This document shows positions 33,613-37,600 of a stretch of DNA of 64,000 nt, piece by piece. The position numbers and the translations under genes were made by a program. The DNA is from Gammaproteobacteria bacterium. Lineage in GTDB: Bacteria > Pseudomonadota > Gammaproteobacteria > Steroidobacterales > Woeseiaceae. The DNA lies in the NCBI GenBank assembly GCA_013151645.1, contig JAADHU010000029.1, positions 1-64,000 on the forward strand, written 5' to 3'. Under the pieces are notes generated by a model, which worked only from the letters and a program-made list of their open reading frames with translations, did not search any database and was not told the origin of the DNA. How positions within the stretch are numbered: the stretch's first letter is position 1; each line of letters opens with the position of its first letter.

Positions 33613-33704
33613 ACGTCTCGCGCTGGTTGATACCTGCCATCTGATTGGCGTCGCCAGCACTTCTGACAGCCGCCCGACGGTGTCTCAGTTTCTGCCCGTA
33701 CTCC

Positions 33705-33732
33705 TTGTAGACAGGAATTTCGCAGCTACACT
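33705..33732 (+). promoter_or_regulatory. Possible promoter of the ECF sigma operon, near-leaderless
   Basis: TTGTAG (33705-33710) and TACACT (33727-33732) are 16 bases apart. The -10 is only 9 bases before ATG 33742, so transcription would begin at or next to the start codon. There is no purine-rich ribosome-binding site before this ATG, which would agree with a leaderless message. Confidence 0.25.
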
Positions 33733-33741
33733 CCGAAACCT

Positions 33742-34293
33742 ATGGGTGATTCTGAAAAAAATCAGTCCGAAGTCTTTGAGCGTTTGCTGCGACCGCATAT
33801 GGACCGCCTGTATCGGTTGGCCTTCCGGCTAACCCACAACAAGGCGGAAGCGGAAGACCTGTTCCAGGATGTTCTGACGAAGTCTTTCGGGCGACTGGAC
33901 GATCTGCAGGCCGTCAGAGATCCGGGCCCGTGGCTCAATCGCGTTCTGTACAACCACTTCGTTGACAATAAACGCCGCTATGCGCGCCAGCGCCTGGTCA
34001 CGGTTGAGGAAGGGTGCCTGCCGGAGCAGTCCGTCGAGGCCTTTGCCGGCAACAGCAGCCCGGTCCACGATGTCGAGCGGCTGGACGACATAATGCAGCT
34101 CGAATCGGCGCTCGCGATGCTCAGCGACGAACATCGCACAGTGGTTCTTCTGCACGACTCGGAGGGCTATAAAATCTCTGAAATTCAATCGCTTACCGGC
34201 GACCCAATTGGCACTATCAAGTCCCGATTGCATCGTGCCAGGGCTCGATTACGAGAATTAATGCAGGAAAAAGGAACCTTTTCCCGGGACTAA
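33742..34293 (+). CDS. ECF-family RNA polymerase sigma factor
   Basis: Alternative sigma factor directing RNA polymerase to a small regulon. It is 183 residues with region 2 (RLYRLAFRLTHNKAEAEDLFQDVLTKSF, with PGPWLNRVLYNHFVDNKRR) and region 4 (LESALAMLSDEHRTVVLLHDSEGYKISEIQ, with PIGTIKSRLHRARARLREL). No region 3 or 1.1 is present, as expected for the ECF group. It is followed by a zinc-finger anti-sigma gene and a secreted poly-Asp protein gene, probably its own targets. Confidence 0.93.
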   Translation: MGDSEKNQSEVFERLLRPHMDRLYRLAFRLTHNKAEAEDLFQDVLTKSFGRLDDLQAVRDPGPWLNRVLYNHFVDNKRRYARQRLVTVEEGCLPEQSVEAFAGNSSPVHDVERLDDIMQLESALAMLSDEHRTVVLLHDSEGYKISEIQSLTGDPIGTIKSRLHRARARLRELMQEKGTFSRD

Positions 34294-34322
34294 GCGTGTT
34301 ACTCGTTAACAGGATGAAAAAA

Positions 34323-34961
34323 ATGAACTGCGAGACGGTAAATAACAATCTGGACGACTTTATTGATGGCGCGCTAAGCGCCGCCGATACAACCGCCGCC
34401 GGCGAGCACATTGAGCATTGCGGCGACTGCCAGAGAATCGTCAATGATGCACGCGAACTGCAGGACCTTTTGAAAACATACGGAGACACGCACGTGCCCA
34501 CAGCAACGACGGCTTTCTACGACACGGCACTGCGCAACGCAACCCGAAACGGTGCGACGGCACAGCATCGGCATTCGTGGTTAAAGGGCTTTGGCAGCGC
34601 CGTTGCAGCAGGGATGGCATTGTGGATCGTCAGCGGCTTGTTTTTCAATGCACCCGAGGTCGAAGACGTGACCATCCCGGTTGTCACGATGGCGCTGGAA
34701 GAACCGCGTACCGTTAATCTGGTTTTTTCATCCGCGGTTGACCTGGTCGATGCGACGCTGACCGTCATCCTGCCAACAGGAATCGAAATCGCCGGCTTTG
34801 AGGGCCAGCGTGAGATCAGCTGGGAAACCAGCCTGACCGCGGGAAGAAATATGCTTCCCCTGAAACTTATTGCAACTTCGCCGCAGGGCGGAGAAATACT
34901 GGCCATGCTGCAGCATGACGACGATGACCGATCGTTTCGTCTGCAGGTGACCGTGATTTGA
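34323..34961 (+). CDS. Membrane anti-sigma factor with zinc-binding domain
   Basis: Likely sequesters the ECF sigma factor encoded just upstream. In 212 residues, the N-terminal ZAS domain has the HxxxCxxC motif HIEHCGDC near residue 37. A transmembrane helix at about 90-108 (GFGSAVAAGMALWIVSGLFF) follows, then a periplasmic beta-rich sensor domain (NLVFSSAVDLVDATLTVILPTG and on). I use ATG 34323 because AGGA lies 8 bases upstream; a GTG 9 codons earlier is in frame. The periplasmic part does not match a ligand-binding family I know. Confidence 0.85.
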   Translation: MNCETVNNNLDDFIDGALSAADTTAAGEHIEHCGDCQRIVNDARELQDLLKTYGDTHVPTATTAFYDTALRNATRNGATAQHRHSWLKGFGSAVAAGMALWIVSGLFFNAPEVEDVTIPVVTMALEEPRTVNLVFSSAVDLVDATLTVILPTGIEIAGFEGQREISWETSLTAGRNMLPLKLIATSPQGGEILAMLQHDDDDRSFRLQVTVI

Positions 34962-35002
34962 GGACCTTCGGCACCACCGGAGTATTTAACGGAGTAGTTA
35001 TC

Positions 35003-35794
35003 ATGAAACAGTTCAAAATAATGACCGCCAGCCTGGTGTTGACGTGCCTGGCGCTTTTTCCCGCCGCGGCGATGGCCGATGAAGACGACCTCGACGTATA
35101 TATGGAAGTCTACGATGACGTGAAAAGCATGGGCGACGATGTGGTTGTAATGCGCGGCCCGGACAGCGATGAAGCCGAGGACGACGGTCACGACGAAGCC
35201 GACATCGATCATGATGAAGACAGTGCATCCGACGAGGACAACGACGTTGCGAACCACGAAGACGGTGAGCCCGACGAAGACCACGACAACGACGCTGCGA
35301 ACCGCGAAGATGACGACCACGACGACGATGCGGTGGACCACGAAGACGACGAGTCTGACGACGGCGATCTGGACGAGGAATCTGACGAGGGTGGAGACTT
35401 TGACGGCGTGAGCGACGACGACTTCGAGAACGACGATGCCGATGCCAGCGACGACATGGACCTGGAAGACGATGGCGATCAGGAAGAGGGCGAAGACATC
35501 GACGATGACCAATTCGATACGGAAGAAGACGACGAAGAGCATGACGACGGCATGGAAGGCGAGGAAGACGAAGCCAGCGATGACGACGGCATGGATAGCG
35601 ACGACGACGAAGCCAGTGACGATGACGGCATGGAAAGTGACGACGACGAAGCCAGCGACGATGACGGCATGGAAGGCGACGACGAGGCAGAAGATGACAG
35701 CGACGACGAAGCCGCTGACGACGATCTCGAGGATGACGACGCCGATGAACAAGACAGTGCTGATGACGCCGGTGACGACGACTCGGACGTATAG
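35003..35794 (+). CDS. Secreted, extremely Asp-rich repeat protein
   Basis: A 263-residue protein with a Sec signal peptide (MKQFKIMTASLVLTCLALF to AMA). After about 40 ordinary residues it becomes almost wholly Asp/Glu, with scattered His, Ser, Ala and Gly, and there are no Cys or aromatic-rich segments. Three exact-length 13-residue repeats (DDDEASDDDGMES type) occupy about residues 187-225. The extreme net negative charge and lack of hydrophobics predict a disordered, cation-binding secreted or surface protein; calcium or metal binding is inference. GGAG lies before ATG 35003. It is the third gene after the sigma and anti-sigma genes and ends at a strong terminator. I know no family. Confidence 0.8.
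   Translation: MKQFKIMTASLVLTCLALFPAAAMADEDDLDVYMEVYDDVKSMGDDVVVMRGPDSDEAEDDGHDEADIDHDEDSASDEDNDVANHEDGEPDEDHDNDAANREDDDHDDDAVDHEDDESDDGDLDEESDEGGDFDGVSDDDFENDDADASDDMDLEDDGDQEEGEDIDDDQFDTEEDDEEHDDGMEGEEDEASDDDGMDSDDDEASDDDGMESDDDEASDDDGMEGDDEAEDDSDDEAADDDLEDDDADEQDSADDAGDDDSDV
35561..35677 (+). repeat. Three tandem 39-bp repeats inside the poly-Asp gene
   Basis: Units at 35561-35599, 35600-35638 and 35639-35677, each coding 13 residues around the invariant core EASDDDGM. The second and third units differ at only a few bases; the first is more diverged at its 5' end. In-frame multiples would allow copy-number variation without frameshift. Confidence 0.8.
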
Positions 35795-35840
35795 TCTGAA
35801 AGACTGAATAACCGCTCAGCGCGGCTTCAGAACCACGAGA

Positions 35841-35875
35841 CCCCCTGATTATTCCGATAATCAGGGGGTTTTTTT
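35841..35875 (+). terminator. Intrinsic terminator after the sigma/anti-sigma/poly-Asp operon
   Basis: A 12-bp perfect stem (CCCCCTGATTAT / ATAATCAGGGGG) with a TCCG loop is followed by seven T. It lies about 45 bases after the poly-Asp stop. Confidence 0.92.
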
Positions 35876-35974
35876 GCGCCAGGTCATAGTTTTGACGATC
35901 AGTGCGTGCATCACGCCAGAATCCGGGTAAATTTGACGGCAGATTATTCAGGCAGGGGTACGGGCACTCCAGGC

Positions 35975-37600
35975 ATGGCGACAACATCTCGTAAAAACAG
36001 GGTCACTTTTGGCTTCATGGGCCTTCTGTTGTCCATCGTATTCAGCCTGCTAGCACCCGCCGCATACGCGGTCACTGCGGAGGAGTCCTTTGCCGACGGC
36101 AACCGCCTCTTTCGTGACGATCTGTACTGGGCCGCTCTGCTCCGCTATCGACAGGCCACTCAGGCCGGCATGGACACACCGCTGCTGCACTACAATACCG
36201 GCGTCGCGCACTACAAAGCCGGCCAATACGGTCGCGCGCATCAAGCTCTGCTCCGGGCCAGTCGATCACCGCGATTACGCGTCATATCGCATTACAACCT
36301 TGGGCTGAATTCCTACGCGGCCAGCAACAATGACGAGGCTTTGCGCTGGCTCCGCAAAGCCAGGGACCAGAAGCAAAGCCCTAAGATTCGCAGGCTGGCT
36401 ATCAGGGCCATCGCCAGAATTCGCAAAGCGGAACCCAGGATTAAACCCGTCGTCGTGCATGCGCGCGAAATCGGCGAAGCGAAAAAATTTACTGAACTGG
36501 ATTTCTATGCGCGCGCCGGCTTCGGCAATGATGACAACGTCTATCGCTCCCCATCGCGGAGCTACCTGGACCGGTCCAGACGAATTCAACCCGTAGTGGT
36601 CGATCCGGTGGTGCAGTCCGGCGTCTTTTACCCGGTCGCCCTGGGCGCCAAATACTCGGTCAACAGTTTCGAAAACGAATCCTTTTTCGGCCGCTACCGT
36701 TTTTCCGGGCACTTTTATCAGGACGCGAATCTCACCAATGCCAACGAGTTCAGTCAGGAGGTCGCCTTCGGCACGGAGTACGAGCGCAAAGAGGAGGGCC
36801 GCGAAAACATTGTGTCCAGCGCCTTTACGGTCGCCCAGCACCGGGAAACCTACTTCGACCCCGATGATGGTCTGGAACGCGCCAGAAACGGTGTCGGTAT
36901 CGGCGACCGGTTGTCCTATCTCCGCTACGGGCCGGAAATTCGCACGCGGCAATCCTGGAAACGCTTCACCGTGAATCTTTGGGGCAAAGCTCAGCTGTGG
37001 AATTATCAGAGCACACTTGAGGTTCCTGAATACGATAACGAATTCATTCGCGTTGGCGGCAATGCCCAGTATCGCTTCACGCGCACCTCACTGTTGCGAC
37101 TCACTGCGGAGGCCTACTCCCGAAACTTCAGTGACCGCCCCTCTTACGAGCTCAACGGCACACAACCTATTGGCAATCCCACTGTCCAGTACGACTACAT
37201 CGATTACGGCATCATGGCGCGGCAACGCATCACAAGAGCGATGTGGTTCGGGGTTAAATACGTGCGCACTGAGCGCACAGACGGCTACCTCGGGTATAAC
37301 GACTACACACGCGATGCCTATGGATTCCAATTCAGCCTGCGGGCGGGAAAACGGTTTCGACTCAACGCGGATGCGACCTACCGAGTCTACAATTTCACGA
37401 ACGCGTTCGCCTTCAACAACCCCGCTGCCGGACGCAAGACGCAAGAATCCCTGCGCGGCAAAATCAAGGCGACGTTTGAACTGGACTGGAACGTCACCCT
37501 TGTCGGCGAATTCGTTTACCGGGAGGTCGGCTCCAACGATTTCCGTATCCAGTACGACCGCAGCCAGTACCTGCTCAGCGTGCAGTGGAACTACGACTAG
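35975..37600 (+). CDS. TPR plus outer-membrane beta-barrel protein
   Basis: A 541-residue exported protein. The signal peptide (to about residue 34, ending AYA) is followed by TPR-like helices to about 155 (SFADGNRLFRDDLYWAALLRYRQAT, then LLHYNTGVAHYKAGQYGRAHQALL). The long C-terminal region has alternating aromatic and polar residues typical of transmembrane beta strands (for example FTVNLWGKAQLW, LLRLTAEAYSRN), ending VQWNYD. This N-TPR/C-barrel plan is shared with surface lipoprotein assembly modifiers (SLAM) and some exopolysaccharide exporters; I cannot assign either. The start is ATG 35975; an upstream in-frame GTG adds a non-signal extension. It follows the poly-Asp gene after the terminator, so it has its own promoter. 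Confidence 0.65.
   Translation: MATTSRKNRVTFGFMGLLLSIVFSLLAPAAYAVTAEESFADGNRLFRDDLYWAALLRYRQATQAGMDTPLLHYNTGVAHYKAGQYGRAHQALLRASRSPRLRVISHYNLGLNSYAASNNDEALRWLRKARDQKQSPKIRRLAIRAIARIRKAEPRIKPVVVHAREIGEAKKFTELDFYARAGFGNDDNVYRSPSRSYLDRSRRIQPVVVDPVVQSGVFYPVALGAKYSVNSFENESFFGRYRFSGHFYQDANLTNANEFSQEVAFGTEYERKEEGRENIVSSAFTVAQHRETYFDPDDGLERARNGVGIGDRLSYLRYGPEIRTRQSWKRFTVNLWGKAQLWNYQSTLEVPEYDNEFIRVGGNAQYRFTRTSLLRLTAEAYSRNFSDRPSYELNGTQPIGNPTVQYDYIDYGIMARQRITRAMWFGVKYVRTERTDGYLGYNDYTRDAYGFQFSLRAGKRFRLNADATYRVYNFTNAFAFNNPAAGRKTQESLRGKIKATFELDWNVTLVGEFVYREVGSNDFRIQYDRSQYLLSVQWNYD

Follow-up and report, generated by a model that had tools for sequence, protein, structure and literature searches.

A conserved four-gene ECF sigma factor unit with a variable-tailed secreted protein and a dedicated TPR/beta-barrel, a candidate trans-envelope relay of gammaproteobacteria

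Among described systems, the nearest working principle to that of the locus analyzed here appears to be the RcsF/OMP/IgaA system of E. coli. In this system, a hydrophilic segment of RcsF lies in the lumen of outer-membrane proteins, and RcsF signals to the inner-membrane inhibitor IgaA (PMC4942254, PMC9907809). The likeness (an exported protein, small and hydrophilic, that is associated with the lumen of a barrel and signals to an inner-membrane inhibitor) would be one of working only, none of the RcsF parts having a homolog here: RcsF is a lipoprotein that occupies general porins or OmpA and feeds a phosphorelay, whereas the present locus has a dedicated TPR barrel and an ECF sigma factor as output, and the lipidated N-terminal cysteine of the RcsF type is absent from the exported protein of the window (the whole stretch of 64,000 nucleotides that was analyzed). 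A placement of a hydrophilic segment in the barrel lumen would, in our case, be suggested by the co-variation of its charge with that of predicted lumen residues. Cell-surface signalling joins an outer-membrane barrel, an anti-sigma factor with a periplasmic domain and an ECF sigma factor (PMC9249621), and the same three kinds of component as in FecA–FecR–FecI are found at this locus; here, however, a separate secreted protein stands in place of the TonB-dependent transporter and its fused signalling domain, and the anti-sigma factor is of the zf-HC2 and not of the FecR type, Pfam scans for a Fec-type transporter or a FecR-type anti-sigma finding only TPR plus barrel and zf-HC2. In type 11 secretion/Slam systems (DUF560, PF04575), a protein with N-terminal periplasmic TPRs and a barrel is encoded next to a secreted protein (PMC8406197), an arrangement also seen here. 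Nevertheless, SlipAM was matched weakly in just 2 of 26 barrel members (best E 2e-4; the window protein gave no match) and is absent from the families listed for A5, and neither a TbpB-type cargo domain nor TonB genes were found in the unit. Membership of the barrel in this secretion type is not supported by SlipAM. Finally, the BcsC/EpsL/BBP2_2 channels share the TPR plus barrel plan, but the present unit is without polysaccharide synthesis genes and is controlled by a sigma/anti-sigma pair.

The locus consists of the following features:

33683..33711, plus strand: promoter-like site of the sigma operon, TCTCAGTTT-N12-CTTGTAGA, its element and spacing common to 10 family loci
33742..34293, plus strand: ECF sigma factor, 183 aa (Pfam Sigma70_r2 and Sigma70_r4_2)
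34323..34961, plus strand (ATG): anti-sigma factor with zf-HC2 (Pfam), transmembrane segment and periplasmic 8-strand beta sandwich
35003..35794, plus strand (ATG): third gene, exported protein of 263 aa (signal peptide, motif, acidic tail)
35003-35077, plus strand: signal peptide of the third gene
35078-35161, plus strand: conserved motif of the third gene, DEDDLDVYMEVYDDVKSMGDDVVVMRGP
35162-35791, plus strand: acidic tail of the third gene
35841..35875, plus strand: intrinsic terminator in the gap between third gene and barrel gene (direct reading; fold)
35884..35912, plus strand: promoter-like site of the barrel gene, TCATAGTTT-N12-CGTGCATC, conserved directly after the terminator in most family loci
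35975..37600, plus strand (ATG): TPR/beta-barrel outer-membrane protein (Pfam TPR; AF2; Foldseek)
36077-36430, plus strand: TPR part of the barrel gene
36491-37594, plus strand: 16-strand barrel part of the barrel gene

The initial annotation had read an ECF sigma factor, a ZAS-type anti-sigma factor, an Asp/Glu-rich exported protein and a TPR/barrel protein at 33742-37600, and Pfam, AlphaFold and the signal peptide confirm that all of them are present. The sigma factor carries regions 2 and 4 only and adjoins an anti-sigma factor with a zf-HC2 match (E 1.3e-6, Pfam) and one transmembrane segment, which places the pair in the ECF/ZAS type. The terminator proposed there, a 12-bp stem followed by a T-run, is also real: its region folds with -35.4 kcal/mol (z -4.3), and it is kept in most loci of the window's family, where it stands between the third gene and the barrel gene.

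The unit comprises four genes (sigma, anti-sigma, small exported protein and TPR/16-strand barrel), more than was first described. Across 74 loci (the window and 73 related ones, defined by an anti-sigma score of at least 95 and drawn from 30 + 42 loci, three more and the window), the sigma gene is adjacent to the anti-sigma gene in 71, and a barrel gene lies in the same locus as the anti-sigma in 68, including one in which it is inverted (L127) and one in which it lies 2.5 kb away (L132). Half of the barrel-less loci (L057, L112, L134) are contig ends or cut stretches, and L129, L137, and L138 are genuine exceptions. The same four-gene pattern is found in 40 further loci. Since dozens of loci from many gammaproteobacterial families show this gene order, the arrangement is more than chance, and the proposal of a self-contained signalling unit holds; the acidic gene and the barrel gene are not missing from most orthologous sigma loci. 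In the window's family, the unit lies mostly between cyoE and uvrD, and some of those genomes carry second copies of it elsewhere. The anti-sigma was found in 25 of the 60 nearest genomes, in 92/396 genomes of the window's order, in 22/24 genomes of one other order and in 63 of 369 genomes of the class at E 1e-6 (about 38 of them strong, E 1e-24 or better). A separate draw at phylum level yielded only three other genomes with it, all of one genus, and the distribution is therefore patchy. A simple search with the sigma protein in a collection of genome contigs returned distant relatives only, and the literature searched gave no description of this four-gene unit.

A promoter-like element shared by the two transcription units has also been found. 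In the window's family, the sigma site (TCTCAGTTT-N12-CTTG) and the barrel site (TCAYAGTTT-N12-(C/A)GTGC) have the same geometry, and a matrix built from barrel sites alone ranks the sigma site best in the window and eight relatives (shuffle p <0.05 in 7/9). The pattern TCWYAGTTTN12CKTG, composed after both sites had been inspected, has three matches in the 3.96 Mb genome, two of them at this locus, and its reversed control has none. The third match (G000:C61:6044, L188), which falls within the gene of a histidine kinase adjacent to a response regulator, was set aside. This shared site, together with the conserved adjacency, makes the barrel, which had been described as the next gene, a part of the unit. 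Outside the family, a classical ECF-like pair, GGAACC-N13-16-CGT, precedes the sigma gene in 17/73 upstream regions. Within window positions 33705-33742, a sigma70-like TTGTAG-N16-TACACT (conserved in the family in the form CTTGTG...TACACTCGGG) leaves about 10 bases between its end and the start codon of sigma, which suggests a nearly leaderless message. Rfam gave no match.

In the window, Asp and Glu make up 52% of the third protein, whose signal peptide ends in AMA before D; this is an A-x-A type ending, and no lipobox was seen in the protein. Across families, the signal peptide is followed by a motif of about 30 residues, DVTMxV...I.LP (more fully, DLDVTMEV(I/L)D...I.LP), and the sequence beyond it diverges completely. 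A 37-position profile of the motif matches in 16 of the 40 nearest genomes, once in each and mostly at known loci. The tail is hypervariable, its net charge per residue ranging from -0.82 to +0.32, and may be Asp/Glu-rich, a Glu/Lys/Arg mixture, Lys/Arg-rich (L127), or Pro- and Gln-rich. As the motif is kept while the tails diverge, sequence comparison defines the third protein by signal peptide and motif, and poly-aspartate is a flavour of the lineage. This bears on the purpose suggested by the initial annotation, in which stress would induce a cation-binding, polyanionic polymer at the surface, with the barrel as its anchor or exporter. The tails are acidic throughout the window's family, as such a polymer would have them; nevertheless, homologous units with the same motif and partners have near-neutral, Pro/Gln-rich or basic (Lys/Arg-rich) tails, so that a polyanionic product as the purpose of the system does not stand and we regard the polymer as very improbable. 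Within the acidic tail of the window (35500-35720), nearly identical repeats, each some 13 residues long (EASDDDGMESDDD), suggest a recent internal duplication.

The barrel protein has TPR_2 matches (Pfam), and its AlphaFold2 model (26 sequences, mean pLDDT 88) consists of a signal helix, seven TPR-type helices (35-152) and 16 beta strands (173-540). BcsC is its top Foldseek match (E 3.8e-11), with low TM-scores (0.35) that speak for architecture only; BBP2_2 is matched in 15/26 members, and the TIGR03016/EpsL profile is matched as well. The 12-strand and 16-strand forms of the barrel are one family (hhalign E 2e-66). OmpO of S. maltophilia was considered for comparison and dropped as unrelated. 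These matches, and an architecture like that of type 11 secretion (PMC8406197) and BcsC, would suit a dedicated secretion channel, in which the third protein reaches the cell surface or the medium through the barrel, the tail is matrix or ion-binding material, and the anti-sigma meters unexported substrate so that production matches export. We consider such a channel somewhat unlikely, given the rarity of SlipAM, the weak matching of TPR_Slam (7/20), and the lack of a visible surface anchor or folded cargo domain; moreover, tail composition is unconserved, whereas a functional matrix protein would keep it.

The charges of the tail and of its partners are related. In loci outside the window's family (n=38-39), the net charge per residue of the tail opposes that of the barrel (rho -0.68; independent contrasts r -0.49/-0.50, p 0.002), a correlation found by exploration, and that of the periplasmic domain of the anti-sigma (rho -0.66/-0.68; contrasts -0.44/-0.47, p 0.006). 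The TPR domain follows with rho -0.65 (contrasts -0.30, p 0.07), the cytoplasmic part of the anti-sigma shows the opposite sign (+0.41), and the sigma factor no significant relation (rho -0.23). Within the barrel, the signal lies in predicted lumen-facing residues (n=39; rho -0.69, contrasts r -0.65, p 7e-6) and not in predicted lipid-facing ones (0.04, contrasts -0.02), loops and turns being weaker; facing was predicted from hydrophobicity parity, with one 16-strand model mapped onto mostly 12-strand relatives. Dropping five extremes leaves a tail-lumen rho of -0.60. In 26 new loci taken as a follow-up, tail and barrel are again opposed (rho -0.85; lumen -0.72), and lipid-facing residues are correlated too (-0.84) because the loci fall mainly into two groups, within one of which the lumen relation is absent; this set supports the tail-barrel opposition, not lumen specificity by itself. 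For the combined 65 loci, contrasts on the barrel tree give r -0.34 (p 0.006) for the lumen and no significant value for lipid-facing residues (0.07), loops (-0.11), or TPR (-0.06). In the window's family (n=23), tail and barrel charge are uncorrelated (rho -0.26, p 0.23); tails vary little there because they are mostly strongly acidic, and most of the barrels are near neutral or negative. Pooling all loci gives a weak relation (rho -0.18).

Because the tail also opposes the anti-sigma periplasmic domain, the third protein could be a periplasmic modulator of the anti-sigma only, as RseB is for RseA, with the barrel gene simply a target of the sigma factor and the charge relations reflecting general periplasmic conditions. 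BamA, used as a control, shows weak raw correlations of the same sign (rho -0.32, -0.39), as general conditions would produce; nevertheless, after phylogenetic correction its barrel and POTRA contrasts are not significant (-0.10 and -0.11), the partial correlations remain, the signal lies in the predicted lumen-facing and not the lipid-facing residues, and the barrel gene stays adjacent even when inverted (L127), all of which makes a modulator of this kind improbable. The opposition of tail and lumen would also be expected from passage through a secretion channel, and is compatible with the role of exporter or anchor first proposed for the barrel.

The simplest reading of these sequence relations is a contact between the tail and the barrel lumen, whether the tail stays there permanently or passes through, and a further contact of the tail with the anti-sigma domain; physical threading, anti-sigma binding, the direction of the signal and its stimulus are what we infer from them. 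In the proposed mechanism, the third protein would be held by the TPR/barrel protein, with the short motif as a docking or signalling element and the disordered tail lying in, or passing through, the lumen. When this complex is not formed, or when something disturbs it at the surface, the third protein would be free in the periplasm and could bind the beta sandwich of the anti-sigma and so alter sigma release; the released sigma factor would then transcribe the sigma operon and the barrel gene. A trans-envelope signalling unit of this kind, with the tail held by its dedicated barrel and engaging the anti-sigma once displaced, has by our judgement nearly an even chance of being correct. We propose tentatively, as falling somewhat short of an even chance, that it is a relay not described before: a disordered secreted protein that coevolves with the lumen of its dedicated TPR/barrel would report barrel occupancy to the anti-sigma controlling the same four genes. 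The opposed charges of tail and lining suggest a new route for reporting the outer surface to the genome, and make the relay directly testable by charge swaps. If true, the state of the outer membrane would be coupled to transcription in a compact and widespread manner, with no TonB-dependent receptor involved. The unit also offers a function to test for low-complexity secreted proteins, a class overlooked by family searches.

The anti-sigma domain that the tail would meet is a beta sandwich (about residues 118-212) and the most conserved part of the protein in the alignment; AF2 models the periplasmic part with pLDDT about 95, and Foldseek finds it to resemble complement MG-type beta sandwiches. 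In loci L053-L062 of one genus (g10), the zinc-finger part of the anti-sigma is missing or interrupted by stops, and sigma, motif protein and barrel remain; with the zinc finger lost, the sigma factor may be held differently there. In L145-L147 and L127, the gene upstream of sigma on the opposite strand, divergent from it, presumably encodes a DUF4382-like lipoprotein; a literature search for DUF4382 together with sigma factors found none. Finally, L148 (3842-4900) and L149 (minus strand) carry the transmembrane segment and periplasmic domain of the anti-sigma without zinc finger, sigma or barrel, followed by a small secreted Arg/His/Asp-rich low-complexity protein without the DVTM motif and then by LemA and HtpX-like genes.
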